From the NCBI GenBank assembly GCA_015658775.1, contig DQOF01000139.1, positions 1 to 33,113 of the forward strand: DNA of 33,113 bases, written 5' to 3'. The notes under the pieces were generated by a model. That model was not told the DNA's origin, did no database searches, and saw only the letters and a program-made list of their open reading frames with translations. Position 1 is the first letter of the stretch. Each line of letters starts with the position of its first letter. Origin of the DNA: Acidimicrobiia bacterium (lineage in GTDB: Bacteria; Actinomycetota; Acidimicrobiia; Acidimicrobiales; MedAcidi-G1). Positions 1 through 23,710 of the stretch are shown in pieces. The position numbers and the translations under genes are program-made.

Positions 1-578
1 CCACCGATGAACCCGACGGTTCCGGTCTGGCTCTTAAGGCCTGCCGCTGCGCCGACGAGGAAGGAACCCTCATGTTCGGCGAACCCCAGGGAGGCGACGT
101 TGGGTGCCTCGACCCAGCCGTCGATGATGCCGAAGGCCGTGTCCGGGTACTCTGCTGCGACCTCAGTCATCGTGTCGGCGAACAAGAAGCCGACACCGAT
201 CACCAGGTCGTTCTCGTCAGCCTGGAGGCGCAACAACTCGGCGCGGTTGGAACCATCACTGTTGGGTGAAGCATCAGAGATCGACGCACCCAACTCGTTC
301 TGACCTTGCTCAAGGCCCATGTACGCAGAGTCGTTGAAACCCCCGTCGCCACGACCACCGATGTCGAATACGAGACCCACACTCACGGACTCGATAGGCG
401 CAGCCGTCGTAGCCGCAGGGGCAGCCGTCGTAGCCGCAGCAGGTGCGGCCGTGGTGGCCGCAGCAGGTGCCCTTGTCGTGGCAGCAGGCGCCGCCTCTTC
501 GGCTTCGCTGCCGCATGCCGAGAAGACCAGGATCGACCCCAGCAGTACGGCTAGCAGTCCTTGTACTCGCTTGCTCAT
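1..578 (-). CDS. BMP/PnrA-family substrate-binding lipoprotein (3' end outside window)
   Basis: This gene runs off the left edge, so only the first 192 codons are visible; it is absent from the ORF track. It starts at ATG 578 after a GGAGG ribosome-binding site. The protein opens with a lipoprotein signal peptide ending in a lipobox (VFSAC, Cys22). A low-complexity linker follows, with about four imperfect PAAATTAA-type repeats. The mature domain has the features of the basic membrane protein/PnrA family: SVGLVFDIGGRGDGGFND near its start, a GLEQG helix, VIGVGFLFADTM and FAEHEGSFLVGAAAG. Family members are extracytoplasmic receptors for ABC importers, mostly of nucleosides. It should be anchored outside the membrane and feed a permease/ATPase set lying beyond the window, which I cannot see. 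Nucleoside as the ligand is inference from the family. Confidence 0.9.
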   Translation of the reverse strand, partial: MSKRVQGLLAVLLGSILVFSACGSEAEEAAPAATTRAPAAATTAAPAAATTAAPAATTAAPIESVSVGLVFDIGGRGDGGFNDSAYMGLEQGQNELGASISDASPNSDGSNRAELLRLQADENDLVIGVGFLFADTMTEVAAEYPDTAFGIIDGWVEAPNVASLGFAEHEGSFLVGAAAGLKSQTGTVGFIG

Positions 579-2132: not shown

Positions 2133-2160
2133 TACATGATCGTGTCAGTACATGATCGTG
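2133..2160. repeat. Short tandem duplication at the Qng1 3' end
   Basis: The 12-mer tacatgatcgtg occurs at 2133-2144 and 2149-2160, a 16-base period. The second copy encodes the last residues of Qng1; the first lies just beyond its stop codon, between the convergent genes. It looks like a small slippage duplication. Confidence 0.6.
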
Positions 2161-3155
2161 CGGGTGAGGTGGTGTGGCCGCAGCGTGGGGAATGCCTTGT
2201 GGTAGGTGCTCCACAGCCTGTAGTCGAGTTGCGGAATGACGATCTGCCTGTCGGCCGGCCTGATCAGGTTGATGGCGTCGGTGAGCAGGGCGGTCGCGTA
2301 GATCGTGTGCGAGCGGATCTCGACCTCCTCGTCGGAGTCCCTCTCCAGGAGTATTCCTCGGGTGATCTGGTCGTCGAGTTCCGCTGTGTACTCGAGTACT
2401 CCCATCATCTGGAGGGCGACCGGCAGTATGTAGTCGGCGAACGCGGTCATGTCGGCCAGGTCACGTATGGCCAGTGCTCCCGTCGCACATAGCGAGACGT
2501 GCAGCGACCAGAGGCAGAGCTGCCCGAGCTTGTAGAACCTGACGGGTTGGCCGTTGTAGTCGCTGACGTCGGCGAATCGCGGGAACTCCTGCACCAGTCG
2601 TTCGAGCAGACCGTTTCCGTCTGCGTAGTTGGCAGGTTCACACGATCGGACGAAGTTGTGGAAGCGGCCGTCGTACCTCTCGACAAGGACTGCGCCGATC
2701 TCGTTCAGGATCTGCGCACGCTCCTCGAGCATCGGCATCTCCATGTTGCCCCGGAAGATCGAGGCAAGGTCATCTGCCGTGACCGTGGCCAGGAACCCGC
2801 CATCGAGGACGGGGGTGCCGCTGTGGGCGGCGTTATGGATTCCGGCGAACATGGCCTCGGCGTCAGCCCACCTACGCCCCTGGTAGTCGGTCTCGAACCT
2901 CTTGCCCGATTCGAAGTCCGTGTAGGCGAAGTTGACAGACGAGGTAAGCATGGAAGCGTCGATGATCGTGTCCGGGTCGGAGCCGAAGTCGAAGGGCCCC
3001 TCGACCGACCCGTCCGGCATGGTGAACTCCTCGTAGGCCATCCACCGGGCGACCCGGTCGACAGCAGCCTCCGAGGTGCGGACGTGCCCCGATGCTTCGA
3101 CTACCGGGATGACGGACCGGAGCACGGGCTTCTCCCAGGCACTGATTCTCGGCAT
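2145..3155 (-). CDS. Queuosine salvage hydrolase, Qng1/DUF2419 family
   Basis: A 336-residue protein matching the queuosine salvage family (DUF2419; human C9orf64/QNG1), close to the human length of 341. Conserved stretches run through the whole protein: VNFAYTDF near residue 75, an IFRGN..MPMLEERAQILNEIG block, NFVRSCE, a LVQEFPRFADV segment, YKLGQLC, DMTAFADYILPVALQ, EVEIRSHTIYA, and the C-terminal LDYRLW. Characterised members are N-glycosidases that release the base queuine from queuosine 5'-phosphate or queuosine, recycling it for tRNA modification. ATG 3155 is preferred over the track's 3206 because GGAG lies seven bases upstream and the extra 17 residues are unlike the family. It is divergent from the ribokinase gene. 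No tgt or Q-transport gene is in the window, so the salvage route is inferred from family alone. Confidence 0.87.
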   Translation of the reverse strand: MPRISAWEKPVLRSVIPVVEASGHVRTSEAAVDRVARWMAYEEFTMPDGSVEGPFDFGSDPDTIIDASMLTSSVNFAYTDFESGKRFETDYQGRRWADAEAMFAGIHNAAHSGTPVLDGGFLATVTADDLASIFRGNMEMPMLEERAQILNEIGAVLVERYDGRFHNFVRSCEPANYADGNGLLERLVQEFPRFADVSDYNGQPVRFYKLGQLCLWSLHVSLCATGALAIRDLADMTAFADYILPVALQMMGVLEYTAELDDQITRGILLERDSDEEVEIRSHTIYATALLTDAINLIRPADRQIVIPQLDYRLWSTYHKAFPTLRPHHLTRTIMY

Positions 3156-3321
3156 GGCAGTTCTCCGCTGGTGGTGGGGACGGCGGGTCGAGTGTCGTCC
3201 ATCCACCGGGCCGGTTCCAAGACGGGCCTGTTGGCCGTGCAGACGGCCTGATGCCAGCGGAGGTCCCGGGCCCTCGTTACCCTCGGGCGGAGAGATTCCC
3301 GAGATTCACCAGGACGCGCAC

Positions 3322-4254
3322 GTGGCAGTCGAACCGGCCGAGTCGACCGGCCTTGTGATCGTCGTCGGCTCCACCATGATCGATCTCGTCGCGTACTCCC
3401 AGCGGGTTCCAGAAGCCGGGGAGACGATCATCGGGGACCGGTTCCAGATGGGCTTCGGAGGCAAGGGTGCCAATCAGGCCGTCATGGCGTCGCTCCTGGG
3501 CGCGAGGGTCGCGATGGTCAACTGTGTCGGAGACGACTCATACGGGCAGTTGACGAGGGACAACCTCGGGTCCTTCGGGATCGATACCGATCATGTCCAC
3601 ACCGTTCCCGGGGCCAGCGGAGTCGCACCCATCTGGGTCGAACCCGACGGGACCAACAGGATCATCATCGTTCCCGGCGCCAACAACGGGCTGACCGGCG
3701 AGATGGCCGTCGAGGCCGTCAGGTCGTTCGACGACCTCTCCGTCGTCGTCGGCCAGTTGGAGGTTCCCCAGGCCGCGACGACAGCGGGTTTCGCCGAGGC
3801 GAGGTCGAAAGGGGTGATGACGGTCCTCAACCCGGCGCCGGCAGCGGTCCTGGAGCCCGACCTGCTGGCAGTGACCGACTGGCTCATTCCCAACGAGGTC
3901 GAGTTCTCGATCCTGGCCGACGGCGCAGATCCCGAAGACGGGGCCCTTGTCGCGTACGCGGAGCGGACCGGCGCCAGGTTGCTGGTGACCCTGGGCGGGG
4001 ACGGGGTCGCCCTCCTGGAGGAGGACGGCACGGTCTCGAGGCATCCCGCCGATCGGGTGGAACCGGTCGACACGACCGGAGCGGGCGACGCGTTCGTAGG
4101 TGCCTTCGTTGCCGGGTTGGCTGCCGGCCTCGGTGAGATGACGGCCGTTCGACTCGGGACTTCATGTGCCGGGGAGAGCGTCACCCGTCCGGGCACCCAG
4201 ACCTCCTTCCCGTCCCGGGAACGCTGCAGGGAGATTCTGGCCACCTGTTCCTGA
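3322..4254 (+). CDS. rbsK: Ribokinase-family sugar kinase
   Basis: A 310-residue PfkB/ribokinase-fold kinase of usual length. It begins LVIVVGSTMIDLVAYSQRVP and shows the first PfkB signature (FGGKGANQAVMASLLGA). NPAPA lies in mid-domain, PNEVEF follows, and the C-terminal DTTGAGDAFVGAF motif carries the catalytic Asp and the anion hole. These features fit ATP-dependent phosphorylation of D-ribose or a related sugar or nucleoside in the cytoplasm. GTG 3322 was chosen over the track's ATG 3076: it has AGGA at 3311-3314, and the upstream residues are compositionally random and antisense to Qng1. A TACCCT hexamer at 3278-3283 could be its -10. The nearby BMP nucleoside receptor would make ribose from nucleosides a sensible substrate, but that link is inference. 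Confidence 0.88.
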   Translation: MAVEPAESTGLVIVVGSTMIDLVAYSQRVPEAGETIIGDRFQMGFGGKGANQAVMASLLGARVAMVNCVGDDSYGQLTRDNLGSFGIDTDHVHTVPGASGVAPIWVEPDGTNRIIIVPGANNGLTGEMAVEAVRSFDDLSVVVGQLEVPQAATTAGFAEARSKGVMTVLNPAPAAVLEPDLLAVTDWLIPNEVEFSILADGADPEDGALVAYAERTGARLLVTLGGDGVALLEEDGTVSRHPADRVEPVDTTGAGDAFVGAFVAGLAAGLGEMTAVRLGTSCAGESVTRPGTQTSFPSRERCREILATCS

Positions 4255-4283: not shown

Positions 4284-4613
4284 ATGGCTTGGTTGGTCTG
4301 CGGTGATCGGGTGTTGGCCAGTCTGGAGATAGCCGACTCGTCAACGGCGCGGAGGCGCGGGCTGCTCCGCCGCGACGGGATCGAGGGCGCGCTGCTTCTC
4401 CGGCCTGCGAACTCCGTGCACACGGTGGGAATGCGGTTCGCCATCGACGTAGCCCACCTCGACGCCGACCTGCGGGTGCTGCGCACGTCGACCATGGCGC
4501 GTCATCGCGTGGGCCGTCCCGTGCCGGGTGCCCGGGCGGTGGTCGAGGCCGATGCCGGATCGTTCGAACGATGGGGTCTGGCCGTCGGCGACGAACTCGA
4601 GGTGAGGGAGTGA
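4284..4613 (+). CDS. DUF192 family protein
   Basis: A 109-residue protein of the DUF192 family: short beta-rich proteins of unknown biochemical function. The typical core is present: a GLLRRDGIEGALLLRPANSVHTVGM stretch and then FAIDVAHLDADLRVL, matching the family pattern of Gly-Leu-Met, a Phe/Leu-rich strand, His-x-x-(Trp/Gly)-Met and a later Asp. The end (GDELEVRE) is also usual. There is no signal peptide, unlike many proteobacterial members, so it is probably cytoplasmic. ATG 4284 was chosen because the leaderless -10 box sits six bases upstream; the track's 4164 start would overlap the ribokinase gene by 91 bases. Its stop overlaps the rsmI start by four bases (GTGA), so the two are probably co-translated. 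Confidence 0.82.
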   Translation: MAWLVCGDRVLASLEIADSSTARRRGLLRRDGIEGALLLRPANSVHTVGMRFAIDVAHLDADLRVLRTSTMARHRVGRPVPGARAVVEADAGSFERWGLAVGDELEVRE

Positions 4614-5476
4614 GCGACGGGTCGGTCGGGGGCAGGCTGATCCTCGTGGCGACCCCGATCGGCAACCTGGGCGACCTCTCGCAGCGGGCTGTCGAGGTCC
4701 TGGCCGCCGCCGACCTCATTGCCTGCGAGGACACCCGCAGGACCGGCAGGCTCCTCCAGCACGCCGGGATAACAGGAGCGTCGCTGGTGCGTGTCGACCA
4801 GCACACGGAGGATCGGGCGTCCGGGAGGATCGTGGACCGGTTGGCCGGGGGTGGAACGGTCGCTGTGGTCACCGACGCCGGCACACCCGGCATCTCGGAC
4901 CCGGGTGAGCGGCTAGTTCGGCGTGTTTTGGGCGAGGGGTTCGAGGTGTCGGTGGTTCCCGGGCCGTCGGCACCGGTCGCCGCCCTGGTTGTCAGCGGCC
5001 TGCCCACCGACCGCTGGTGCATGGAGGGGTTCCTGCCCCGGAAGGGGGCTGCGCGGACCGACCGGCTGGCGGAACTGGCGGTCGAGGAGCGCACGATGGT
5101 GTTCTTCGAGTCGCCGAACCGTCTTGCCGTGACCCTGGCCGACATGGTCGGGGCGTTCGGGGCGGGTCGGCAAGTGGCGGTGGCCCGGGAACTCACCAAG
5201 CTCCACGAGGAGGTCTGGCGCGGAACCCTTGCCGATGCGGTCTCCTGGGTGCAGGACCCGCCGAGGGGTGAGGTCGTGGTCGTGGTAGGAGGTGCGTCGC
5301 CGGCCGCCGGGGCGGGCGACGACCGCATCCGTGCATTGGTGGCCGATGCCAGGAGCGCCGGCTCGTCGACCCGTGACGCCGCCGACGAGGCAGCCCGCCG
5401 GCTCGGGGTGTCACGCCGACGCGCCTATCGGCTGGCCCTGGAGGCCCATGCTCCGGAGAATGGGGCCCAGCGGTAG
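4610..5476 (+). CDS. rsmI: 16S rRNA 2'-O-methyltransferase RsmI
   Basis: A 288-residue member of the tetrapyrrole-methylase fold that methylates the 2'-OH of C1402 in 16S rRNA using SAM. Diagnostic motifs are LVATPIGNLGDLS at the N-terminus, IACEDTRRTG, VVTDAGTPGISDPG, VPGPSAPVAAL and FFESPNRL. The family C-terminal extension ends with an HTH-like GVSRRRAYRLAL. GTG 4610 overlaps the DUF192 stop by four bases (GTGA) and is preceded by a purine-rich GAGGTGAGG site; the track's ATG 4571 would need a 43-base overlap. Its TAG stop also forms the first three bases of the metG -10 box. With rsmA downstream, two of the 16S decoding-region modifiers lie in one gene block. Confidence 0.95.
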   Translation: MSDGSVGGRLILVATPIGNLGDLSQRAVEVLAAADLIACEDTRRTGRLLQHAGITGASLVRVDQHTEDRASGRIVDRLAGGGTVAVVTDAGTPGISDPGERLVRRVLGEGFEVSVVPGPSAPVAALVVSGLPTDRWCMEGFLPRKGAARTDRLAELAVEERTMVFFESPNRLAVTLADMVGAFGAGRQVAVARELTKLHEEVWRGTLADAVSWVQDPPRGEVVVVVGGASPAAGAGDDRIRALVADARSAGSSTRDAADEAARRLGVSRRRAYRLALEAHAPENGAQR

Positions 5477-5479
5477 CCT
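5474..5479 (+). promoter_or_regulatory. Leaderless -10 box of metG, overlapping the rsmI stop codon
   Basis: TAGCCT begins with the rsmI TAG stop and lies eight bases before ATG 5488. A GGAGG at 5481-5485 is only two bases from the ATG, too close to act as a normal ribosome-binding site, so leaderless initiation is the better reading. Confidence 0.5.
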
Positions 5480-5487
5480 CGGAGGCC

Positions 5488-7152
5488 ATGTCCATCCCGA
5501 TCCTGGTCGCCGTGGCCTGGCCGTACGCCTCGGGGTCCCGCCACCTCGGCCACCTTGCAGGTGCCTACCTGCCGGCCGACGTCTTCGCCAGGTACCAGAG
5601 GCTGGCCGGCAACCGGGTTCTCATGGTCAGCGGCTCGGACGTGCACGGCACGCCCATCACGGTCCGGGCCGATGCCGAGGGCGTGACGCCGGCGGAGATC
5701 GCCGACCGCTACCACGCAGAGTTCGTCGGCGACTGGGAACGCCTTGGAATCAGCTGGGATCTCTACACCTCGACCGGCACGGCGAACCACGCTGTGGTGA
5801 CCCACGACCTCTTCCTGACGTTGCTCCAGAACGGCCACATCGACAAGCGCACCAGCGAGCAGTACTTCGACGTCGACGCCGCCAGGTTCCTTCCCGACCG
5901 CTACATAGAGGGCACCTGCCCACACTGCGGCTACACAGAGGCTCGGGGGGACCAGTGCGAGGACTGCGGGCGCACCCTGGATCCAGACGAACTGGTGGAT
6001 CCCCGGTCCAGGATCACCGGCACTGTGCCGGAGTTGCGCGAGACGGAGCACTTCTTCCTGCGGCTGTCGGACTTCGGTGAGGAGTTGGGCGGTTGGCTCG
6101 ACACGCGGGAGGGCTGGCGCAGGCACGTCCTGAACTTCTCGAGGGGCTGGATCGAGGAGGGCCTCCAGGACCGCGCCATAACCCGCGACCTGGAGTGGGG
6201 CGTCGACGTGCCCGTCGACGACCTGGGTCCGGGCAAGCGCATCTACGTGTGGTTCGAGGCGGTCATCGGCTACCTGTCGGCGTCGAAAGAGTGGGCGCAG
6301 CGGCAGGGCGACCCCGAGGCCTGGCGCGAGTGGTGGGAGGGCGACGCCAGGTCCGTCTACTTCATCGGCAAGGACAACATCCCGTTCCACACCATCATCT
6401 GGCCGGGGATGCTCCTCGGCTATGGCGGTCTGAACCTGCCGACCGACGTGCCGGCCAACAACTACGTCACCTTCAAGGGGGGTAAGGCGTCGGCCAGTCG
6501 GGGTGTGGGCCTCACCATCGGCGAGGCGCTCGGGTTGTTCGAGGCCGACGCCATCAGGTATGCGCTGGCCGCTTCGCTGCCGGAGCAGAGCGACACGGAC
6601 ATCTCGGTCGAGGAGATAGGCCGTCGGGTCAACGAGGAGCTGGTGGCCACCTGGGGGAACCTGGTGAACCGGGTGCTGTCCATGGTGCACAGCACCTGCG
6701 GCGCCGAGGTGCCGGGTCCCGGCAGCCGCACCGGGGACGACCTCGCCCTGCTGGACCGGATAGACGAGGCGCTGGTCCGGGTGGGTGGCCAGATCGACCG
6801 GGTCGAGTTGCGGGCCGGCCTGCGGACGGGAATGGAGGCTGCCGCCGCGGTCAATGCGTACCTGAACGCCACCGAGCCGTGGAGGCTGGCGAAGGTCGAT
6901 CCGGAGCGCGCCAGCGTCGTGCTCGGTACCGCCCTGGCGGCTGTCAGCGGGGTGCGCCTCGCGTTGGCGCCCTACCTGCCGTTCTCGTCGTCTGCCCTCG
7001 ACGATGTGCTGGGCGAGTTGCACGCCTGGCGTCGGATAGAGCCGGAACCCGGCACGCCTGTGCCCAAGCCTACGCCGCTGTTTCTGAAGGTGAATCTCGA
7101 AGAACTACTGGCCGACGGGGCTGATGGGGGCCGTGGAGGCACCGTGGGGTGA
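5488..7152 (+). CDS. metG: Methionyl-tRNA synthetase, archaeal-like type
   Basis: A 554-residue class I synthetase that charges tRNA-Met. The HIGH motif reads HLGH in GSRHLGHLAGAYLPAD. One zinc knuckle is visible (CPHCGYTEARGDQCEDCG, near residue 150). The position of a second knuckle (PRSRITGTVPEL) has lost its cysteines. FIGKDNIPFH and the anticodon-binding helix (NEELVATWGNLVNRVL) are intact. The KMSKS loop reads KASAS in GGKASASRG, so its second lysine is alanine. From memory, the overall pattern resembles archaeal MetRS (KFSTS loop) more than the mycobacterial type. There is no C-terminal EMAP/tRNA-binding domain. Translation probably begins on a leaderless mRNA, and the stop overlaps the tatD start by four bases. 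I see no riboswitch or T-box upstream: only 11 bases separate it from rsmI. Confidence 0.95.
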   Translation: MSIPILVAVAWPYASGSRHLGHLAGAYLPADVFARYQRLAGNRVLMVSGSDVHGTPITVRADAEGVTPAEIADRYHAEFVGDWERLGISWDLYTSTGTANHAVVTHDLFLTLLQNGHIDKRTSEQYFDVDAARFLPDRYIEGTCPHCGYTEARGDQCEDCGRTLDPDELVDPRSRITGTVPELRETEHFFLRLSDFGEELGGWLDTREGWRRHVLNFSRGWIEEGLQDRAITRDLEWGVDVPVDDLGPGKRIYVWFEAVIGYLSASKEWAQRQGDPEAWREWWEGDARSVYFIGKDNIPFHTIIWPGMLLGYGGLNLPTDVPANNYVTFKGGKASASRGVGLTIGEALGLFEADAIRYALAASLPEQSDTDISVEEIGRRVNEELVATWGNLVNRVLSMVHSTCGAEVPGPGSRTGDDLALLDRIDEALVRVGGQIDRVELRAGLRTGMEAAAAVNAYLNATEPWRLAKVDPERASVVLGTALAAVSGVRLALAPYLPFSSSALDDVLGELHAWRRIEPEPGTPVPKPTPLFLKVNLEELLADGADGGRGGTVG

Positions 7153-7955
7153 GAGGTTTCGACGAACGTGGGTCCGGCGAGCAGAACTCCCCGGAACGGG
7201 TCGACCTCACCTGGTTCGACAACCACTGTCACCTCGGTGACGACGCGGAGGATGTGATCGCCCGGGCACGGGTGGCCGGGGTGTCCGGCATGGTCAACGT
7301 CGGAACCGATCTGGAGGGCAGCCGTGCCGCCATCGCCCTCGCTCGCTCCCATCCCGACGTCTGGGCAACCGTCGGCGTCCATCCCCATGAGGCCAGGCAC
7401 GGCATGGACGGCATTGCCGAACTGCTCGGTGACGACACGGTGGTGGCGGTGGGAGAGGCCGGCCTGGACCACCACTACGACTTCTCGCCCCGCCGACAGC
7501 AGGCAGACGTGTTCGCCGCCCAGATCGCCCTGGCGAACGAGCGGAGCATGCCGTTGGTCATCCACACTCGTGAGGCCTGGGAGGAGACCTTCGCTGCGCT
7601 CGATGTCGAAGGCGTTCCCGCCCGCACGGTGTTCCACTGCTTCACCGGTGGTGTCGACGAGGCCGGTGCCTGCCTCGAGCGGGGTGCCCTGCTCTCGTTC
7701 AGCGGCATCGTCACGTTCGGTGCTGCCGACGACCTACGTGCGGCAGCGGCCGCATGTCCGTTGGACCGCGCGATGGTGGAAACCGACTCCCCGTACCTGG
7801 CACCGGTGCCCCACAGGGGCCGCGCCAATGAGCCTGCGTACGTGGCGCTGGTGGGTGCGGCCGTCGCTGCTGCGATGGGGAGGGACGTGGCGGAGGTGGC
7901 GACCGCGACGTCGGCCAATGCACGCCGGTTCTACGGATTGGATCAGGATTCCTGA
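7149..7955 (+). CDS. tatD: TatD-family metal-dependent hydrolase
   Basis: A 268-residue TIM-barrel metallohydrolase of the TatD DNase family. Metal-site motifs are in order: FDNHCHLGD (the HxH of strand 1), VGVHPHEA, VGEAGLDHHYDFSP with the bridging Glu, LVIHTREAWEE, VFHCFTG and the C-terminal METDSPYL. Family members are 3'-5' exonucleases or deoxyribonucleases active on DNA or RNA ends, used in repair and RNA quality control. The start GTG 7149 overlaps the metG TGA (GTGA). The first 20 residues are a poorly conserved extension, so a slightly later start is possible, but the overlap favours this one. metG-tatD-rpf-rsmA is a standard actinobacterial order. Confidence 0.93.
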   Translation: MRGFDERGSGEQNSPERVDLTWFDNHCHLGDDAEDVIARARVAGVSGMVNVGTDLEGSRAAIALARSHPDVWATVGVHPHEARHGMDGIAELLGDDTVVAVGEAGLDHHYDFSPRRQQADVFAAQIALANERSMPLVIHTREAWEETFAALDVEGVPARTVFHCFTGGVDEAGACLERGALLSFSGIVTFGAADDLRAAAAACPLDRAMVETDSPYLAPVPHRGRANEPAYVALVGAAVAAAMGRDVAEVATATSANARRFYGLDQDS

Positions 7956-8025
7956 CCAGCCGAACTGTAAAGGCCGTGGATTCGACGCGTGCCCGGTGGT
8001 GAGTTGACCGTCACCAAGCTTCGGG

Positions 8026-8054
8026 TTGCGCTGATCCGTCTTCTTCCGTAACTT
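8026..8054 (+). promoter_or_regulatory. Promoter of the rpf gene (-35 TTGCGC, -10 TAACTT)
   Basis: TTGCGC (8026-8031) and TAACTT (8049-8054) are separated by 17 bases, and six bases separate the -10 box from GTG 8061. This is the best two-part promoter among the leaderless candidates and decides the start codon. Confidence 0.6.
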
Positions 8055-8060
8055 TCCCGG

Positions 8061-8891
8061 GTGGCGCGACAACCGCGCGCGGTCGTCCTCCGAGGGAAGA
8101 GGGATGGGGTCCTGGTGGCCGATTTCACCGTTGAGCGATGGAGGGTAGTCGTCGTGGCCCTGGCCACGGTCGCCGCACTGCCGTTGTTCGTCCTCGAGGA
8201 CCCTGGTTCGATCGGCGCCCTGACCGGTGTCGCCGATGCGACTGGCGGAGCGTCTGTCATGATCGTCGAACCAGTCGCCACGGCGTCCGCTGCCTCGACG
8301 ACGGTGCCGACGGTCGATGTGGCCGCGCTCAGCCGGCGTGCCGACGCCTGGCATGTCGCCCGCTCGAATGCGCCGACGATCGCCCGTCTCGCCGAGGCAG
8401 CCCGTCTGCACGAGGCGGAGGCACTGGCGCTGGCACGGGAGATCGCCGACACCGAGTACGAGGACCGCGAGAGCCTCGACGCGCTGCTGAAGGCCAAGAA
8501 GGAGGAGTCGAATCGGCAGGCCCTGCGGGAGCGGCTGCGGGCAGCGGAAGACGAACGGAGGGCCACTGCCCTGACGACCCCCGGCCCGACGACCACCATC
8601 CCCTGGGATACCGCGCCAGCCGACGGTGGGCCGTCCCGCGAGCAGTGGGAAGCGCTCAGGTATTGCGAGGCCACCGGCGACTACACGGCCCTCAGCCCGA
8701 CTGGCATGTACCGGGGCGCCTACCAGTTCAGCGTCACCACCTGGGACTGGATCGCCGGGCTCTACTACGAGCACCTGATCGGCGTGGATCCGGCGGCCGC
8801 CGCACCGGGCGACCAGGACGCCATGGCGCATTCCCTCTACCACCTGCGTGGTCGTGGCCAGTGGCCGGTCTGCGGCCGCTACCTGCCGTAA
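8061..8891 (+). CDS. Rpf-like (resuscitation-promoting factor) transglycosylase-domain protein
   Basis: A 276-residue exported or membrane-anchored protein. A single hydrophobic segment (VVVVALATVAALPLFVL, about residues 30-46) follows a short basic N-terminus. A long Ala/Glu/Arg-rich helical, possibly coiled-coil region spans about residues 90-175, then a Thr/Pro linker. The C-terminal Rpf domain (about 195-276) contains WEALRYCEATGDY with the catalytic Glu after the first Cys, then YRGAYQFSVTTWDW and a closing GQWPVC with the second Cys. Rpf proteins cleave peptidoglycan and promote regrowth of dormant actinobacteria. It lacks the DUF348 and G5 domains of mycobacterial RpfB, although it holds the same position before rsmA. 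GTG 8061 is supported by the leaderless promoter; GTG 8115 is an alternative. Its TAA stop is part of the rsmA -10 box. Confidence 0.87.
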   Translation: MARQPRAVVLRGKRDGVLVADFTVERWRVVVVALATVAALPLFVLEDPGSIGALTGVADATGGASVMIVEPVATASAASTTVPTVDVAALSRRADAWHVARSNAPTIARLAEAARLHEAEALALAREIADTEYEDRESLDALLKAKKEESNRQALRERLRAAEDERRATALTTPGPTTTIPWDTAPADGGPSREQWEALRYCEATGDYTALSPTGMYRGAYQFSVTTWDWIAGLYYEHLIGVDPAAAAPGDQDAMAHSLYHLRGRGQWPVCGRYLP

Positions 8892-8894
8892 TCT
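8889..8894 (+). promoter_or_regulatory. Leaderless -10 box of rsmA, overlapping the rpf stop codon
   Basis: TAATCT includes the rpf TAA stop codon and lies seven bases before GTG 8902. No Shine-Dalgarno sequence is present. Confidence 0.5.
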
Positions 8895-8901
8895 CGCCCG
8901 G

Positions 8902-9750
8902 GTGACACTCACCCGGACCCAGGTCCGGTCGCTGCTGGATCGCCACGGCATCAGCCCGAAGCGTTCGCTCGGGCAGAACTTCGTAGTCGAGCCCAACACC
9001 GTCCGGCGAATCGTCGAGTTGGCGGGCGTGGCGCCCGGCGACCGGGTGCTCGAGATAGGTCCGGGGATCGGCTCGCTCACGCTGGCCCTACTAGAGGCGG
9101 ATGCCGACGTGGTCGCCGTCGAGATCGATGACGTGCTGGTGGGCGTGCTGGCCGAGGTGACGGGGGAGTACCCGCCCGAGCGGATACGGATCGTCCACAG
9201 CGACGCCATGGCGGTCGACTGGGATGACCTGCTGGGTGACGGTCCGTGGGCTCTTGTAGCCAACCTGCCGTACAACATCTCGGTGCCGTTGGTCTGCGAC
9301 CTGCTCGACGCTGTGCCGGCGATCCACCGGATGGTGGTCATGGTGCAGCGCGAGGTGGGCGAACGCCTGGTCGCGGCACCGGGCGACGACGCCTATGGCC
9401 TGCCGTCCCTGAAGGTGGCATTCCATGCCGAGGCCCGACTCCTCGGCCGGGTACCGCCATCGGTGTTCCTTCCCCGCCCGCGTGTCGACTCGGCTCTGGT
9501 CGAGATTGTGCGCCGCCCGTCGCCCGTGGTCGACGCCGATCCGGCGGTGCTCTTCTCGCTGGCCCGTGCCGGATTCGGGCAGCGACGCAAGATGCTGCGG
9601 CGGTCGCTGCGGGCCCTGGTCGACGAGGGCGGCCTGGAGGCTGCGGGCGTGGAGCCGACGGCCCGTGCCGAGGAACTGGGCCTCGCACAGTGGGCGGACC
9701 TGGCCAGACAGGTGTCAGGGGCGGGTACGGCTGGCGGAGCAGGCGGTTGA
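8902..9750 (+). CDS. rsmA: 16S rRNA dimethyladenosine transferase RsmA/KsgA
   Basis: A 282-residue SAM-dependent methyltransferase that dimethylates A1518 and A1519 of 16S rRNA late in 30S assembly. Visible motifs are KRSLGQNFV near the N-terminus, the SAM-binding LEIGPGIGSLT, VVAVEIDD, and the catalytic NLPYN at about residue 118 (VANLPYNISVPL). MVVMVQREVGERL, FLPRPRVDSALV and the C-terminal FGQRRKMLRRSLR follow. Length is normal. GTG 8902 is the conserved start; the track's ATG 8848 lies inside the rpf gene. The seven-base gap after the TAATCT box suggests leaderless translation. Its stop overlaps the ispE TTG start (TTGA), a pairing common in actinobacteria. Confidence 0.96.
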   Translation: MTLTRTQVRSLLDRHGISPKRSLGQNFVVEPNTVRRIVELAGVAPGDRVLEIGPGIGSLTLALLEADADVVAVEIDDVLVGVLAEVTGEYPPERIRIVHSDAMAVDWDDLLGDGPWALVANLPYNISVPLVCDLLDAVPAIHRMVVMVQREVGERLVAAPGDDAYGLPSLKVAFHAEARLLGRVPPSVFLPRPRVDSALVEIVRRPSPVVDADPAVLFSLARAGFGQRRKMLRRSLRALVDEGGLEAAGVEPTARAEELGLAQWADLARQVSGAGTAGGAGG

Positions 9751-10472
9751 GCGCCGTCCTGCTCGCACCGGCGAAGTTGACACTCTCATTGAGGGTTGTG
9801 GGGGTCCGAGACGACGGCTTCCACCTCATCGACGCCGAGATGGCCACCGTCGACCTGGCCGACCGGCTGACCATCGACCCGGGTGACGGCCTCGAGGTCC
9901 TCGGGGTCGACGGCGGTCCGGAGGTGGATGACGGGGACGACAACCTGGTGCGGCGTGCCCTGGCGCTGGCCGGCCGGACCGCGCAGGTGAGGGTCGAGAA
10001 GGTGATCCCGGCCGGTGCCGGCCTGGGCGGCGGGTCGGCCGACGCTGCAGCCGTCCTGCGGTGGGCGGGTTTCGACGACCTGGTCGCAGCTTCGGCCATC
10101 GGAGCCGATGTCGCGTTCTGCCTGGTCGGAGGGCGGGCCCGGGTCACCGGCATCGGTGAGGTGGTCGAGTCGCTTCCGTTCGAGGAGCGGACGTTCACGC
10201 TGCTGACCCCACCGGTCGGTTGCCCGACACCGGCCGTCTACCGGCGTTGGGACGAGATGGGTGGACCGTCGGGCGGTCGCGGGAACGACCTGGAGCAGGC
10301 CGCTGTGGACCTGGTTCCGGACCTGGCCCGTTGGCGCGACTCGCTCGCCGAGGCGTCGGGGCTGCAACCGAGGCTCGCCGGGAGCGGCAGTACCTGGTTC
10401 GTAGAGGGGGAGTTCCCGGGTGGTGGTAGGCGGGTCGTTCGGACCCTTCCGCCGACGTTTCCGTTGGCCTGA
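9747..10472 (+). CDS. ispE: 4-diphosphocytidyl-2-C-methyl-D-erythritol kinase IspE (short form)
   Basis: A GHMP kinase of the MEP isoprenoid pathway that phosphorylates CDP-ME at the 2-hydroxyl. The N-terminal LAPAKLTLSLRVVGVRDDGFHLIDAEM is typical, and the ATP-binding glycine-rich motif PAGAGLGGGSADAAA lies near residue 90. GADVAFCLVGGRARVTGIGE and LAGSGSTWFV mark the C-terminal half. From TTG 9747 it is only 241 residues, about 40 fewer than usual. The loss seems spread over loops between motifs rather than being one truncation, since both ends look complete. TTG 9747 overlaps the rsmA stop by four bases, and GGAG lies upstream at 9735-9738. The track's ATG 9246 start lies deep inside rsmA. 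It is convergent with bS22, with seven bases between stops. Confidence 0.92.
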   Translation: MSAVLLAPAKLTLSLRVVGVRDDGFHLIDAEMATVDLADRLTIDPGDGLEVLGVDGGPEVDDGDDNLVRRALALAGRTAQVRVEKVIPAGAGLGGGSADAAAVLRWAGFDDLVAASAIGADVAFCLVGGRARVTGIGEVVESLPFEERTFTLLTPPVGCPTPAVYRRWDEMGGPSGGRGNDLEQAAVDLVPDLARWRDSLAEASGLQPRLAGSGSTWFVEGEFPGGGRRVVRTLPPTFPLA

Positions 10473-10479
10473 GACCTGG

Positions 10480-10578
10480 CTACTTGCCCCTCATCCGCTG
10501 GGCCCGGGTGCGCTTGAGCATCTTGCGGTGCTTTTTCTTGCGCATGCGCTTGCGGCGCTTCTTGATCAGTGATCCCAT
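10480..10578 (-). CDS. Small ribosomal protein bS22 (AURKAIP1/COX24 domain), 32 aa
   Basis: A 32-residue gene missing from the ORF track. It encodes MGSLIKKRRKRMRKKKHRKM and continues LKRTRAQRMRGK. This is the highly conserved actinobacterial bS22 sequence, in the AURKAIP1/COX24 domain family (MGSVIKKRRKRM...KKHRK). By family knowledge it sits near the decoding centre of the small subunit. The peptide is almost entirely Lys, Arg and His. There is no Shine-Dalgarno sequence; a minus-strand TACCCT (10589-10594) lies ten bases before the ATG, fitting a leaderless or nearly leaderless mRNA. It sits tail to tail with ispE and divergent from tRNA-Gln. Confidence 0.92.
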   Translation of the reverse strand: MGSLIKKRRKRMRKKKHRKMLKRTRAQRMRGK

Positions 10579-10588
10579 GACGGCCCGC

Positions 10589-10594
10589 AGGGTA
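10589..10594 (-). promoter_or_regulatory. Candidate -10 box of bS22
   Basis: On the minus strand TACCCT is followed by ten bases and ATG 10578, leaving at most a few untranslated bases. Confidence 0.4.
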
Positions 10595-10634
10595 CCGGCC
10601 AGAACCGACGTCGCGTCCCGACATGCCCCGGGAC

Positions 10635-10640
10635 TACGCT
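10635..10640 (+). promoter_or_regulatory. Candidate -10 box of tRNA-Gln
   Basis: TACGCT, the same hexamer as upstream of the DUF192 gene, would start transcription about 30 bases before the mature tRNA 5' end. The -35 region is not convincing. Confidence 0.35.
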
Positions 10641-10676
10641 CGGACGCGTACCGGGCGGAGTCCCAGTGCCCGCCAG

Positions 10677-10752
10677 TGGCCGGTAGTTCAACTGGCAGAA
10701 CGCCTGACTTTGGATCAGGAGGTTGCAGGTTCGAGACCTGCCCGGCCAGCCA
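10677..10752 (+). tRNA. tRNA-Gln (anticodon TTG)
   Basis: A complete cloverleaf. The acceptor stem TGGCCGG pairs with CCGGCCA, followed by discriminator G and an encoded CCA. The D-arm contains AGTTCAACTGGCAGA. The anticodon stem CCTGA/TCAGG holds loop CTTTGGA with anticodon TTG, reading CAA/CAG glutamine codons. The T-arm is GCAGG-TTCGAGA-CCTGC. No integrase or attachment-site duplication is seen next to it. No clear terminator follows before the convergent gene. Confidence 0.97.
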
Positions 10753-10782
10753 GTAGCACCTGTGGGGATCGGCCTGAAGGGG

Positions 10783-11712
10783 TCACCCGGCGTCGGGGTA
10801 GCCGGGCCAGGAGTCCTTGAAGACGCCCTGGTGGAGGAGGACTTCTGCCGTGGCCCGGTCGGTCTGGTCGTCGGTGAGCGTCGTACGGGTCCAGTACGAC
10901 TCGGTGCGACGGCTCTCGCCGAGTGCCACGATCTCGCGGTCGATCCGGTAGGTGCGGCCCACCAGGACCGGGTCGCCGAGGAGCCGGACCTCCATGTCGA
11001 TGAACAGCCCTATCGACGGCTGGCGGGCCACGAACCCGGCGTGCTTCGACCCTGCGTTGGTGAGGACGCTGAGCATCTCGATGGGCAGGATCGGCGCGCC
11101 CCACGGCGTGTCGGCCCCGGGCAGGTACCAGTCCAGCGGCTCGGTGATGCGGTCCAGCTTGTCGGCGAGCGAGAAGGGGTACATCTCGCCCAGGTCGTCG
11201 TCGAATCCCACCGTGATGGTCTCGTCTCCGGGCCCTGTCTGGCCCACCGACAACTGATCGAGGACGTGGAGCCGATCGGGGGGCGCGCTGAGGGCCCGTG
11301 CCAGGCGGGGTGCTAGCGCCGTCTCGGGGTGGTCGGGGCCGACCGAGGCCGTGCCGGTCAGGACCGGCGTGCCATCGGCCTTGGCTGAGTCGATCCGCAC
11401 GCCTGTGGCGCCCGGTCCGGAGACGGTGACGGTGGCCCGTACCTCCTCGCCCTCGACGACCATTGTCTGGAAGTGGGCGCTGAGGCAACCGTGGGCGAAC
11501 CAGCGGTCGCCCCTGAGGATGGCCAGGAGCGGGTCGAACTGGCTGAAGTGGGTCGGCCCCTCGATCGGTGCGCCGGCCAGACCGAGGCTCGCAGCGGTCT
11601 CCTCGTCGTGGACGCTCGTGTGGCCGCCGTAGGACTGCTCGGCCAGCATCTGTCGAGGCTGCCGAAGTGGTCCGGTGAGCGTGGTCGGGGTGTCGGATGT
11701 CGGGTGCTCCAC
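10783..11712 (-). CDS. Hotdog-fold (MaoC-like) protein of unknown substrate
   Basis: A 309-residue cytoplasmic protein that looks like two hotdog domains in tandem. The N-terminal half has a MaoC/dehydratase-like stretch (GLAGAPIEGPTHFSQFDPLL, then FAHGCLSAHFQTMVVEGEEVRATVTV). The C-terminal half repeats the pattern of a helix followed by beta strands (LSVLTNAGSKHAG ... GLFIDMEVRLLGDPVLVGRTYRID). Such proteins act on acyl-CoA thioesters as hydratases or thioesterases; I cannot name a substrate, and the catalytic Asp/His pair is not clear. The GTG start at 11712 is supported by a minus-strand TAGGTT six bases upstream (leaderless). It follows the PLP-enzyme gene on the same strand after 58 bases but seems to have its own promoter. 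It is convergent with tRNA-Gln. Confidence 0.62.
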   Translation of the reverse strand: MEHPTSDTPTTLTGPLRQPRQMLAEQSYGGHTSVHDEETAASLGLAGAPIEGPTHFSQFDPLLAILRGDRWFAHGCLSAHFQTMVVEGEEVRATVTVSGPGATGVRIDSAKADGTPVLTGTASVGPDHPETALAPRLARALSAPPDRLHVLDQLSVGQTGPGDETITVGFDDDLGEMYPFSLADKLDRITEPLDWYLPGADTPWGAPILPIEMLSVLTNAGSKHAGFVARQPSIGLFIDMEVRLLGDPVLVGRTYRIDREIVALGESRRTESYWTRTTLTDDQTDRATAEVLLHQGVFKDSWPGYPDAG

Positions 11713-11718
11713 ACGGCG

Positions 11719-11724
11719 AACCTA
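11719..11724 (-). promoter_or_regulatory. Leaderless -10 box of the hotdog-fold gene
   Basis: On the minus strand TAGGTT is followed by six bases (CGCCGT) and then GTG 11712. It decides the start and suggests transcription independent of the upstream PLP gene. Confidence 0.5.
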
Positions 11725-11770
11725 GCCAGTCGGGAGGTGGGCCTCGGAACCCGGGCTGCCGGGATTCGCG

Positions 11771-13048
11771 CTACTCGAGGGTCGCGTACTCGACCGCCGC
11801 GCCGGTGGCTCCGCCCCTGACCTCGTCTGAGGCCTCCTCCAGGTCGACCAGGAAGTCGTCGACCGCCATGGCGTTGCCTGCGCTGACAGTCAGGTGCAGG
11901 CTCGGCGGGGGGCCCAGCCGGTCGAGGTGCCAGCCCCGGGCAGCCAGGGCCTCGCCCAGGGCGTAGGGGTCGATACGCCGACCGGCCTGTTCGCCGGTCG
12001 GATCGACGGCCGGGTCGGCCGAGATGGCCAGGAGGTGGTGTACGGGATCACCCAGCACGGTGAGCCCCTCGATGGTCTCCACGCACGCCCTGATGCGGTC
12101 GGCCGTGTCGAGTGTCGTGCGCACCAGCCGCCTGTAGCCGTCTACGCCCAGGTACTGGAACACCGCCCAGGCGGCCGCCATCGGTAGGCCGGACCTGGTG
12201 CCCTGCAGGTTCGGGGTGACGTAGCGGCCGCCCAACCAGCCGTCGAAGTCGAATGTCTGCCAGCGCCGAAGATCACGGGACCCGTGCAGGATCACTGACA
12301 CGCCCTTCGGCGCGTATCCCAGCTTGTGCAGGTCGGCCGAGATCGATGTGACACCCTCGACCCGGAAGTCCCACAGCGGCGCGGGCCGCCCCTCCATCTC
12401 GGCGAACGGCAGGACGAATCCGCCCATGCAGGCGTCGACGTGGCAACCGGCTCCGACGCCGGCGGCCATGGCGGCGATCTCGGCGACCGGGTCGACGAGG
12501 CCCTGGGGGTACTGCGGGGCGGAGGCCACGACCAGTGCCGTGTCGGGTCCGATGGCGTCGGCCATGGCATCCAGGTCGGCGGTCCAGTCGGCGGTGACCG
12601 GAACGGTCCTGGTTCGCAGGCCGAACAGGTGGGCGCCCTTGTGGAACGCCGCGTGGGCGCTGATCGGCAGAACCAGTTCGGGGTCGGTGACCCCCCGCTC
12701 GTGGCGTGCCCTCTCCCTCGCCGCCTCGACTGCGCACAGGATGCTCTCGGTGCCACCGCTGGTCAGGAAGCCGGCGGCGTCGGGGCCGTTCAGCAGTTCT
12801 GCCGTCCAGCTACAGACCTCGGCCTGGATCGAGCCCAGTGAGGGGAAGGCCAGGGTGTTGAGGGCGTTCTCGTGGAGGTACATGATGGCGGCCTCCTCGG
12901 CGACCGCCCTCACATCCTCCCCTCCGTCGAAGACGAGGGAGAAGGTGCGCCCATCGGCCCACCTGACGTCGCCGCCCCTCTTCTCCCTCAGGTCGGCGAG
13001 GATCTCGTCGGGGGTGCGGCCGACCATCGGCAGGGGGAGAGTTCCCAT
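11771..13048 (-). CDS. PLP-dependent decarboxylase/lyase (group II, sphingosine-phosphate-lyase-like)
   Basis: A 425-residue fold-type I PLP enzyme. GFLTSGGTESI (residues 93-103) binds the cofactor phosphate. HVDACMGGF supplies His203 and Asp205, which contact the PLP ring. SADLHKLGYAPKGVSV carries the Schiff-base Lys242 in the S-x-D-x-H-K context typical of group II decarboxylases and S1P lyase. A C-terminal small domain follows. Substrates in this family range from glutamate, aspartate and tyrosine to long-chain base phosphates; the HK-x-GYAPKG pattern is closest to S1P lyase, but bacterial members so annotated are often uncharacterised. No N-terminal membrane segment is present, so it is probably cytoplasmic. 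ATG 13048 was chosen over the track's 13579 because a TAATAT box sits seven bases upstream and the longer version would cover the divergent DUF4395 gene. Confidence 0.85.
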   Translation of the reverse strand: MGTLPLPMVGRTPDEILADLREKRGGDVRWADGRTFSLVFDGGEDVRAVAEEAAIMYLHENALNTLAFPSLGSIQAEVCSWTAELLNGPDAAGFLTSGGTESILCAVEAARERARHERGVTDPELVLPISAHAAFHKGAHLFGLRTRTVPVTADWTADLDAMADAIGPDTALVVASAPQYPQGLVDPVAEIAAMAAGVGAGCHVDACMGGFVLPFAEMEGRPAPLWDFRVEGVTSISADLHKLGYAPKGVSVILHGSRDLRRWQTFDFDGWLGGRYVTPNLQGTRSGLPMAAAWAVFQYLGVDGYRRLVRTTLDTADRIRACVETIEGLTVLGDPVHHLLAISADPAVDPTGEQAGRRIDPYALGEALAARGWHLDRLGPPPSLHLTVSAGNAMAVDDFLVDLEEASDEVRGGATGAAVEYATLE

Positions 13049-13055
13049 CGGGCCG

Positions 13056-13065
13056 ATATTAGGGT
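13056..13065. promoter_or_regulatory. Overlapping divergent leaderless promoters (PLP enzyme and DUF4395)
   Basis: Within the 24-base gap between two divergent ATGs, the minus strand reads TAATAT (13061-13056) and the plus strand TAGGGT (13060-13065). The hexamers share two base pairs. Each is exactly seven bases from its own ATG (13048 minus, 13073 plus). Both genes would give leaderless mRNAs and could not be bound by RNA polymerase at the same time. Confidence 0.55.
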
Positions 13066-13072
13066 TCGACCC

Positions 13073-13576
13073 ATGGCTGAGATGAACCGGCGCACCAGAG
13101 TATTCAGTTTCCCCAACCCCGTCGACGAGGTGTCGGCCCGGTTGGTCGCTGCGGGTGTGGTCGGCCTCTGCCTGCTCTACCTGGTCACCGGATGGGGACC
13201 GCTGCTCCTCGTGCTGTCCTACGGCTTCCTGGCGAGGGTGGCTTCCGGGCCGACCCTCAGCCCGCTGGGCCAGGTCGTGACCAGGGTGATCCGCCCGCGT
13301 CTGGCCTGGGCGGTACGTGACGCTCCCGGGCCACCCAAGCGGTTCGCCCAGGGAATCGGAGCCGCACTCTCGACCGGTGCGGTCGCGGCTTGGCTGCTGG
13401 GCCAGACGGGGACGGCCCAGGTCCTGGTCTCGGCCATCCTGGGCGCCGCCTCGCTGGAGGCATTCGTCGGTTACTGCATCGGTTGTCGCCTGTTCCGACT
13501 GCTGATGGGAGCCGGCCTCATAGACGACGCCATCTGCGAGGCCTGCAATGACATATGGGACAGAAGCCGGGTCTGA
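13073..13576 (+). CDS. DUF4395 family membrane protein
   Basis: A 167-residue integral membrane protein of the DUF4395 family. Hydrophobic segments occur at about residues 20-60 (LVAAGVVGLCLLYLVTG ... LLLVLSYGFLARV) and about 100-150. The family signatures VDEVSARLVA, GP.LSPLGQ, PPKRFAQGIGA and a final GYCIGCRLF with paired cysteines are present. The CxxC-like pair and the family's frequent proximity to thioredoxin-like genes in other actinobacteria hint at a redox role, but function is unknown. ATG 13073 is backed by the TAGGGT box seven bases upstream; the track's ATG 12872 lies antisense within the PLP gene. A perfect hairpin follows 22 bases after the stop. Confidence 0.82.
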   Translation: MAEMNRRTRVFSFPNPVDEVSARLVAAGVVGLCLLYLVTGWGPLLLVLSYGFLARVASGPTLSPLGQVVTRVIRPRLAWAVRDAPGPPKRFAQGIGAALSTGAVAAWLLGQTGTAQVLVSAILGAASLEAFVGYCIGCRLFRLLMGAGLIDDAICEACNDIWDRSRV

Positions 13577-13598
13577 CACCGATTCCCGTCTACATCGG

Positions 13599-13619
13599 CT
13601 GAGAGGCAGGATCTCTCAG
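13599..13619 (+). terminator. Hairpin downstream of DUF4395 (possible terminator)
   Basis: ctgagag-gcaggat-ctctcag forms a perfect 7-bp stem with a 7-base loop. There is no following T-run, as is common for actinobacterial terminators. It lies between the DUF4395 stop and the prs promoter. Confidence 0.4.
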
Positions 13620-13650
13620 AACCCGTGTGCCCGGTCGGTAGCGGGGGTCG

Positions 13651-13656
13651 TACACT
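13651..13656 (+). promoter_or_regulatory. Candidate -10 box of prs
   Basis: TACACT would start transcription near 13663, leaving a leader of about 40 bases that contains GAGGG before ATG 13704. Confidence 0.4.
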
Positions 13657-13703
13657 CGGTTCTCGGCACGTTCAACGGACCTACCACGAGGGATCGCCGA
13701 CGC

Positions 13704-14684
13704 ATGCAACTGGTCACGCACAAGAAGCTCTATCTCGTGTCAGGCCGGATCAGCCGACCGCTCTCCGAGGCCATCGCCGACGAGATGGGCGAGACCCTCG
13801 GTGAGCCGAACATTACCGAGTTCGCCAATGGGGAGATCCACTGCAGGTTCTCCGAGTCCATCCGCGGCAGCGACGTGTTCATCATCCAGACCCACGCCCA
13901 CCAGAACGGCTCGTCCATCAACGATGCTCTGATGGAGCAGTTGATAATGATCGATGCCGCACGCCGGGCATCCGCCAAGCGCATAACCGTCGTGTGTCCC
14001 CACTACGGCTACGCCCGTCAGGACAGGAAGGCGTCGGGCCGCGAGCCGATCACGGCGAGCCTGGTCGCCAACCTCTTCAAGGTGGCGGGGGCCAGTCGCC
14101 TGGTTGCCATCGACCTCCACTCGGGCCAGATCCAGGGCTTCTTCGACGGCCCCGTCGACCACCTCACAGCCATGCCTGTACTGGTCGAGGGGCTCAGCTC
14201 GTTGAAGGGCGACCTGTCCATCGTGTCGCCCGACGCCGGTCGGGTGAAGGTCGCCGAGCGCTACGCGATGCAACTCCATGCCGACCTGGCCATCGTGCAC
14301 AAGAGGCGCAGCCACACGGGGTTCAAAACGGTCGAGGCCAAGGAGGTGGTGGGCGACGTCGCCGGCAGGGTGTGCGTCATCGTCGACGACATGATCGACA
14401 CGGCAGGCACAGTCTGCGCCGCAGCGGAGCAACTCGTAGACCGGGGTGCGGAGAGGGTCATAGCCGCAACCACCCACGGCCTCTTCTCCGGACCTGCCCT
14501 CGAGCGCTTGACAGCCTCGCCGATCGAGAAGGTCATCGTCACAGACACCCTTCCGCTACCCGACGGCATCGACCCCGATTTCATCGAGGTGCTCTCCGTG
14601 GCACCTCTCATCGCCAGGGCCATCGGTGCAGTGTTCGCCGACACATCGGTCAGCGAGATCTTCGGCGGCGAGAACCTCTCCTGA
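13704..14684 (+). CDS. prs: Ribose-phosphate pyrophosphokinase (PRPP synthetase)
   Basis: A 326-residue class I PRPP synthase that transfers pyrophosphate from ATP to ribose 5-phosphate, feeding purine, pyrimidine, His, Trp and NAD synthesis. It shows NITEFANGEIHCRF, a flexible-loop PHYGYARQDRKASGREPITASLVANL, a metal-binding HSGQIQGFFD, and the PRPP loop VIVDDMIDTAGT at about residues 230-241. Length is normal. ATG 13704 follows GAGGG and matches the usual N-terminus; the track's earlier ATG 13548 lies within the DUF4395 gene. It is usually preceded by glmU in actinobacteria; here it is not. rplY, pth and mfd follow in the conserved order. Confidence 0.96.
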   Translation: MQLVTHKKLYLVSGRISRPLSEAIADEMGETLGEPNITEFANGEIHCRFSESIRGSDVFIIQTHAHQNGSSINDALMEQLIMIDAARRASAKRITVVCPHYGYARQDRKASGREPITASLVANLFKVAGASRLVAIDLHSGQIQGFFDGPVDHLTAMPVLVEGLSSLKGDLSIVSPDAGRVKVAERYAMQLHADLAIVHKRRSHTGFKTVEAKEVVGDVAGRVCVIVDDMIDTAGTVCAAAEQLVDRGAERVIAATTHGLFSGPALERLTASPIEKVIVTDTLPLPDGIDPDFIEVLSVAPLIARAIGAVFADTSVSEIFGGENLS

Positions 14685-14743
14685 GCCACCCCGCCCCGGG
14701 CAGCCGCGCCGGTTGTGGTGGTCCGGCCCGAGACATCAGGCGG

Positions 14744-14749
14744 TAGACT
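14744..14749 (+). promoter_or_regulatory. Candidate -10 box of rplY
   Basis: TAGACT in the 129-base prs-rplY gap would give a leader of about 58 bases with AGGA at 14801 before ATG 14814. Confidence 0.4.
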
Positions 14750-14813
14750 CGCCCGTCGGTCCGGAGATCGCCCGGCCCCACATCCCCCTCTGATCCGCGC
14801 AGGAAGCGTTCCC

Positions 14814-15506: not shown

Positions 15507-15521
15507 GCACAGGGCCGGTCG

Positions 15522-16145: not shown

Positions 16146-16197
16146 CCGACGCCCTCCACGTTCGTCATGGCGGGTTCGGCCCGACCGGCCCCTTCCG

Positions 16198-20582: not shown

Positions 20583-20588
20583 CCCGCG

Positions 20589-21980: not shown

Positions 21981-23710
<1,730 letters not shown>

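Follow-up and report, generated by a model that had tools for sequence, protein, structure and literature searches.

A Qng1-family hydrolase gene of an Acidimicrobiia genome and its linked ribokinase-like kinase and BMP-type importer genes: a probable queuosine-salvage cassette

The window analysed here, a stretch of 33,113 nucleotides, is one whole contig (C135) of an Acidimicrobiia genome of 2.0 Mb in 216 contigs, 90.5% complete. At one end it carries qng1, a divergently oriented kinase gene and part of a nucleoside-binding lipoprotein gene (Table 1). The region from 4571 to 23387 is ordinary housekeeping DNA (RsmI, MetG, TatD, KsgA, GHMP kinase, tRNA-Gln, Prs, L25, Mfd, MazG and enolase), and qng1 and the kinase gene sit at its edge, beside YchF.

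Table 1. Genes of the putative cassette within the window.
Feature	Positions	Strand	Basis or remark
BMP/PnrA-like nucleoside-binding lipoprotein (ABC transporter), N-terminal part	1..578	(-)	cut by contig edge
qng1 (DUF2419/Q_salvage) N-glycosidase, 336 aa	2145..3155	(-)	profile, alignment, structure model
ribokinase-like PfkB kinase, divergent from qng1	3355..4254	(+)	start codon uncertain; longest ORF from 3076

The qng1 reading frame is free of internal stop codons; the ATG at 3155 gives the 336-aa product, and a start at the first GTG would extend the gene to 2145-3206. The product matched PF10343 (Q_salvage) with 189 bits (E 1e-55; gathering score 25) over profile positions 9-285 of 285. 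By phmmer, its residues 12-336 aligned to the DUF2419 protein of Sphaerobacter thermophilus (2e-44), and human QNG1 aligned to residues 64-334 (1e-35). Its closest database relatives, from Ca. Microthrix UBA2131 and one actinomycetote, were 75% identical. The AlphaFold model (pLDDT 92.3, pTM 0.91) superposed on 7uk3 with TM-scores of 0.87/0.91 and on human 7ugk with 0.86, and DUF2419 structures were its only PDB matches at E <= 0.001. K209, D241, D311 and W315 of the window protein are, in the HMMER alignment, the counterparts of StQng1 K199, D231, D298 and W302, and are invariant among 16 sequences from the class Acidimicrobiia. D298 and W302 have been named as active-site residues, and Q-5′-MP is the primary substrate of Qng1 (PMC11592518); the D231N and K199C mutants were solved with Q-5′-MP (PDB entry 7ulc) and with Q (7u5a), respectively. 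These data confirmed an intact Qng1/DUF2419 hydrolase gene, and the family assignment of the first-pass annotation was thus borne out by profile, full-length alignment, fold and active-site residues. Judged by its sequence, the gene is a qng1 orthologue, and its product is predicted to act as a hydrolase. NCBIfam holds no model naming either Qng1 or the window BMP protein.

The same annotation had remarked that many actinobacteria are thought to lack queuosine altogether, and had named the lack of tgt among the findings that would count against a salvage function. Neither applies to this genome, in which a tgt gene (C150:31254-32318, 411 bits) was found with queA immediately preceding it in the same orientation, both exceeding their NCBIfam equivalog cut-offs. 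QueC, which we took as the mark of de novo Q synthesis, gave no match in this genome, and neither did QueF and YhhQ, each absence being weak alone at 90.5% completeness; there was no QueG-domain match either, with a model that is short and too weak to exclude QueG. Weak QueC-model scores (20-39 bits) elsewhere in the class were attributed to other proteins resembling ATP-pyrophosphatases and discounted.

To place these findings in a wider context, 148 genomes of the class Acidimicrobiia were surveyed, among which TGT was detected in 93, QueA in 102, Qng1 above cut-off in 34 and strong QueC in 12, in agreement with the patchy occurrence that had been proposed for Qng1. TGT was found in 30 of the 34 Qng1-bearing genomes versus 63 of the 114 others (the Fisher tests on co-occurrence ignore phylogeny), and in 45 of 50 Qng1-bearing genomes sampled across several phyla. 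The four Qng1-bearing class genomes with no detected TGT probably reflect gaps, because their congeners have TGT. TGT, QueA and Qng1 are all missing from family f5, which belongs to the same order. Two genomes (G035 and G083; loci L042 and L043) carry another Qng1 type, divergent at 26-28% identity, without the linked kinase; both gave strong QueC and QueF matches, and in G083 QueF lies about 3.5 kb from qng1.

The window kinase matched the PfkB profile (2e-61), and its best NCBIfam match was the ribokinase model TIGR02152 with 273.7 bits, below the equivalog cut-off of 299.65 bits. Searching the class with this protein returned two sharply separate score sets: a Qng1-linked set of full-length matches at 235-645 bits, plus one fragment at 191 bits, and the ordinary ribokinases at 176 bits or less. 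The linked clade was present in 31 of the 34 Qng1-bearing genomes versus 10 of the 114 Qng1-lacking ones, all ten of the latter belonging to genus g30; outside g30, the figures were 11 of 14 versus 0 of 100 (counts compiled by hand; the Fisher tests are uncorrected for relatedness). The three Qng1-bearing genomes without the linked kinase (G035, G083 and G129) all have divergent Qng1 copies. Phylogenetic analysis placed the linked kinases from Acidimicrobiia, Nanopelagicales, Chloroflexota and two Proteobacteria-labelled contigs in one group (69 rows, support 96/96) that stands apart from the ordinary ribokinases, with L050 and a few long branches left unplaced. The clade carries the signatures QAVMA and SGVAPIWV, of which the Met of the first and the P-I-W of the second are absent from ordinary ribokinases. 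P-I-W replaces V/L-I-T in the loop that follows Ala98 of the ribose site. Separately, the position of E. coli RbsK Asn14 is occupied by Met in the window kinase and most non-g30 members. Most ribose-site residues, the equivalent of Glu143 included, are retained. Ten g30 genomes have the kinase without Qng1, two of them with the lipoprotein and IUNH genes in place, so the association of the kinase with Qng1 is not a strict one. These two (L117 in G053 and L125 in G081) are also the only surveyed g30 genomes with QueF, as if precursor routes had been swapped.

The link between qng1, the ribokinase-like gene and the BMP-type transporter had been offered as a guess, and proved to be conserved in both gene order and phylogenetic profile. 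The kinase gene was present in 20 of 28 Qng1 loci of the class, the window included, and in 47 of 80 database loci, many of which are cut by contig ends. qng1 and the kinase gene are divergent neighbours in the window, f12, f28 and g30; in L050 they are co-directional and overlap by a few bases; and in f31 and Nanopelagicales the kinase gene lies divergently 6-7 kb upstream, beyond the BMP operon. Such persistent proximity despite varying arrangements speaks for a common function of the two genes. The window lipoprotein, cut by the contig edge, matched PF02608 (2e-24), and the part of it that is present was 52-58% identical to the BMP proteins that head the Qng1 operons of families f31 and f20. 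The one-strand order BMP, ABC ATPase, permease, permease, Qng1, MFS, IUNH was found in 19 of the 80 database loci, Nanopelagicales included; in the Nanopelagicales locus L180 a LacI regulator precedes the operon and two uridine phosphorylase genes and DeoC follow it. Nanopelagicales-like Qng1 operons also occur in MAG records labelled Bifidobacterium breve (L200, L201 and L209, one of 1.3 Mb), labels that look wrong.

The g30 set comprises kinase, Qng1, lipoprotein and IUNH, with a uridine phosphorylase gene adjoining the kinase gene and YhhQ clustered with qng1 in four genomes. The interval between qng1 and IUNH in g30 encodes a conserved putative lipoprotein of 190-220 aa with no Pfam match (L032 6035-6613, L034 4941-5597 and L038 2274-2861). 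This cluster, c16, was considered as YhhQ or another transporter and rejected, being lipoprotein-like and without a Pfam family; YhhQ forms the separate cluster c24. In the close relative Ca. Microthrix L153, a QueF-like gene and two BPD permease genes lie 4 kb from qng1, and the window ends short of the matching place. QueF was found near BPD_transp_2 ABC permeases in L153 (11884-14552), L277 (G051) and L282 (G071), two of these three genomes being without Qng1, and the permeases are a candidate ABC-type preQ0 importer. Rfam returned only tRNA matches in the loci scanned, and hence no known preQ1 riboswitch in them.

The qng1-kinase pair was also present on the two Proteobacteria-labelled contigs, L159 and L161. 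Their genomes have a TGT of the proteobacterial DECTP/GGLAVGE kind, and the GC content of L159 is 56% versus 69% for the window, which makes horizontal transfer of the pair likely. Gammaproteobacteria and Chloroflexota have apparently both acquired the pair, with a binning error behind the Proteobacteria-labelled contigs as a possible alternative.

The TGT pocket bears directly on the fate of the released base. Queuine-type TGTs carry GG[LS][AS]G and preQ1-type TGTs carry GGLAVG (PMC11570991). The TGT of the window genome reads GGMSVGE, which departs from the motif of direct queuine salvage as in Chlamydia and, together with QueA, predicts use of preQ1. Among the 47 class sequences read, with or without Qng1, every pocket was GG-x-x-[VI]-GE with Val or Ile, residues that disfavour queuine; the switch to queuine specificity that had been expected in Qng1-bearing Acidimicrobiia was not observed. 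Queuine released by Qng1 is accordingly not predicted, from the pocket sequence, to enter tRNA straight; a lyase (QueL) or a TGT tolerant of queuine would be required, unless the base has some other role. A motif scan confined to the loci found no radical-SAM ORF (QueL-like, CxxxCxxC-type) near qng1 (108 loci) or near tgt. Nanopelagicales have TGT in 14 of 15 genomes and QueA in none, and the six TGTs read carry GGALDK, neither the preQ1- nor the queuine-type motif; GGLAGDE, of the queuine type, was read in one QueA-lacking genome of Chloroflexota. Compared with the Acidimicrobiia pockets, this indicates that either kind of TGT can accompany the same cassette. The salvage reading of the first-pass annotation thus stood as to family, patchiness, tgt and queA, and gene linkage; its simple queuine route did not, given a preQ1-type TGT.

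Taken together, Qng1, the ribokinase-like kinase and the BMP-type nucleoside ABC importer probably constitute a queuosine-salvage cassette feeding TGT, in which the substrate of the cassette, its transport and the kinase substrate are inferred. Queuosine or its phosphate would be imported via the BMP-type ABC importer or derived from tRNA, and Qng1 would cleave the N-glycosidic bond of Q-5′-MP and/or queuosine to yield queuine and ribose (5-phosphate), with the IUNH nucleoside hydrolase putatively contributing to cleavage in relatives. The kinase could return the ribose part to the pentose phosphate pool, and the freed 7-deazaguanine base would be destined for tRNA via TGT. The earlier proposal that a ribokinase serves to recover ribose 5-phosphate after cleavage mixes two options: cleavage of Q-5′-MP yields ribose 5-phosphate directly, and a ribokinase is needed only after cleavage of a nucleoside. 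If Qng1 acts on Q-5′-MP, the kinase is therefore better placed before Qng1, acting on queuosine, or on the IUNH branch, acting on ribose.

The former placement would make the linked kinase a dedicated queuosine kinase that supplies Qng1 with Q-5′-MP, a variant of the salvage cassette that differs in the kinase step only. That Q-5′-MP is the primary Qng1 substrate (PMC11592518), that the profile linkage is tight, and that the clade is separate from ribokinases with a fixed P-I-W loop and Asn14 replaced by Met in most non-g30 members all accord with it. The retained ribose-site residues, Glu143 equivalent included, and the best NCBIfam match to ribokinase (below cut-off) argue against it, and the persistence of the kinase beside IUNH or uridine phosphorylase in Qng1-lacking g30 genomes favours ribose as its substrate. 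We consider a queuosine kinase unlikely on balance, although the altered sugar-site loop and the profile linkage mean that the enzyme may be one. The fuller proposition, a horizontally spread two-gene cassette of PfkB queuosine kinase and Qng1 served by a BMP-type ABC queuosine importer in Acidimicrobiia and Nanopelagicales, is likewise doubtful.

Two further explanations depart from queuosine salvage itself. The true Qng1 substrate in QueA-containing bacteria might be a nucleoside or nucleotide of preQ1 (or preQ0), in which case Qng1 would deliver preQ1, the base used by their TGT. This would suit the preQ1-type TGT and QueA of the window genome and of Acidimicrobiia and the QueF and permease genes near qng1 in L153, and also the UPS transporter whose gene adjoins qng1 in Acidobacteriota, since it transports preQ0/preQ1 but not Q (PMC11130926). 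However, the solved Qng1 structures hold Q or Q-5′-MP, the residues mutated in them are conserved in the window protein, and the Nanopelagicales cassette, with its different TGT pocket and no QueA, points to queuine there; a preQ1 substrate is thus improbable. Alternatively, Qng1 could be one component of a general set of nucleoside-degrading functions (IUNH, uridine phosphorylase, ribokinase, DeoC and BMP importer) for carbon recovery, with queuine as a by-product. The Nanopelagicales operon, with LacI, BMP transporter, IUNH, two uridine phosphorylases and DeoC, has the content of such a set, and in g30 the kinase adjoins uridine phosphorylase and is kept without Qng1 in ten genomes. Against this, TGT accompanies Qng1 in 45 of 50 genomes, f5 lacks Qng1 along with TGT and QueA, YhhQ or QueF lies nearby in several loci, and queuosine is scarce as a carbon source, which makes catabolic scavenging quite improbable.

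In the literature searched, we found neither a queuosine kinase nor an ABC-type importer of queuosine, nor queuosine joined with Nanopelagicales or queuine with a nucleoside kinase. A transporter survey states that Q-precursor transporters are missing for many bacteria and places Qng1 beside a preQ0/preQ1 transporter with no explanation given; its main text leaves BMP proteins and kinases unmentioned (PMC11130926). The gene sets described here name candidates: the kinase clade, the BMP ABC importer, the MFS protein and the QueF-linked ABC permease pair. Moreover, the contrast between Nanopelagicales (Qng1, no QueA and a non-preQ1 TGT pocket) and Acidimicrobiia (Qng1, QueA and a preQ1-type TGT) makes the fate of the Qng1-released base in bacteria directly testable.

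Compared with known systems, the window Qng1 shares its fold over the full length, and the active-site Lys, two Asp and Trp, with Sphaerobacter thermophilus Qng1 and human QNG1 (PF10343; PDB 7u91, 7ulc and 7ugk), at 31-32% identity to the bacterial (Sphaerobacter) enzyme in the structural alignment. Unlike these, its gene is linked to the kinase clade and a nucleoside ABC transporter, in a genome carrying a preQ1-type TGT and QueA. With RbsK (TIGR02152) the window kinase has the PfkB fold and most ribose-site residues in common; it differs in its separate clade, its QAVMA and SGVAPIWV signatures, its Met for Asn14 and its score below cut-off. Qng1 operons share with PnrA/BmpA transporters the BMP lipoprotein, an ATPase of two ABC domains and two BPD_transp_2 permeases, although the window BMP is truncated by the contig edge and its nucleoside substrate is putative. 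The logic of the QueK-QueL-QueT system of C. difficile, in which Q is imported, the base is split off and a preQ1-type TGT and then QueA follow, is common to both. Some relatives add an IUNH hydrolase, a member of the same superfamily as QueK. In contrast to C. difficile, there was no QueL candidate near qng1 by motif scan (108 loci), the window hydrolase is Qng1 and not QueK, and the importer is a BMP ABC system and not the ECF-type QueT.
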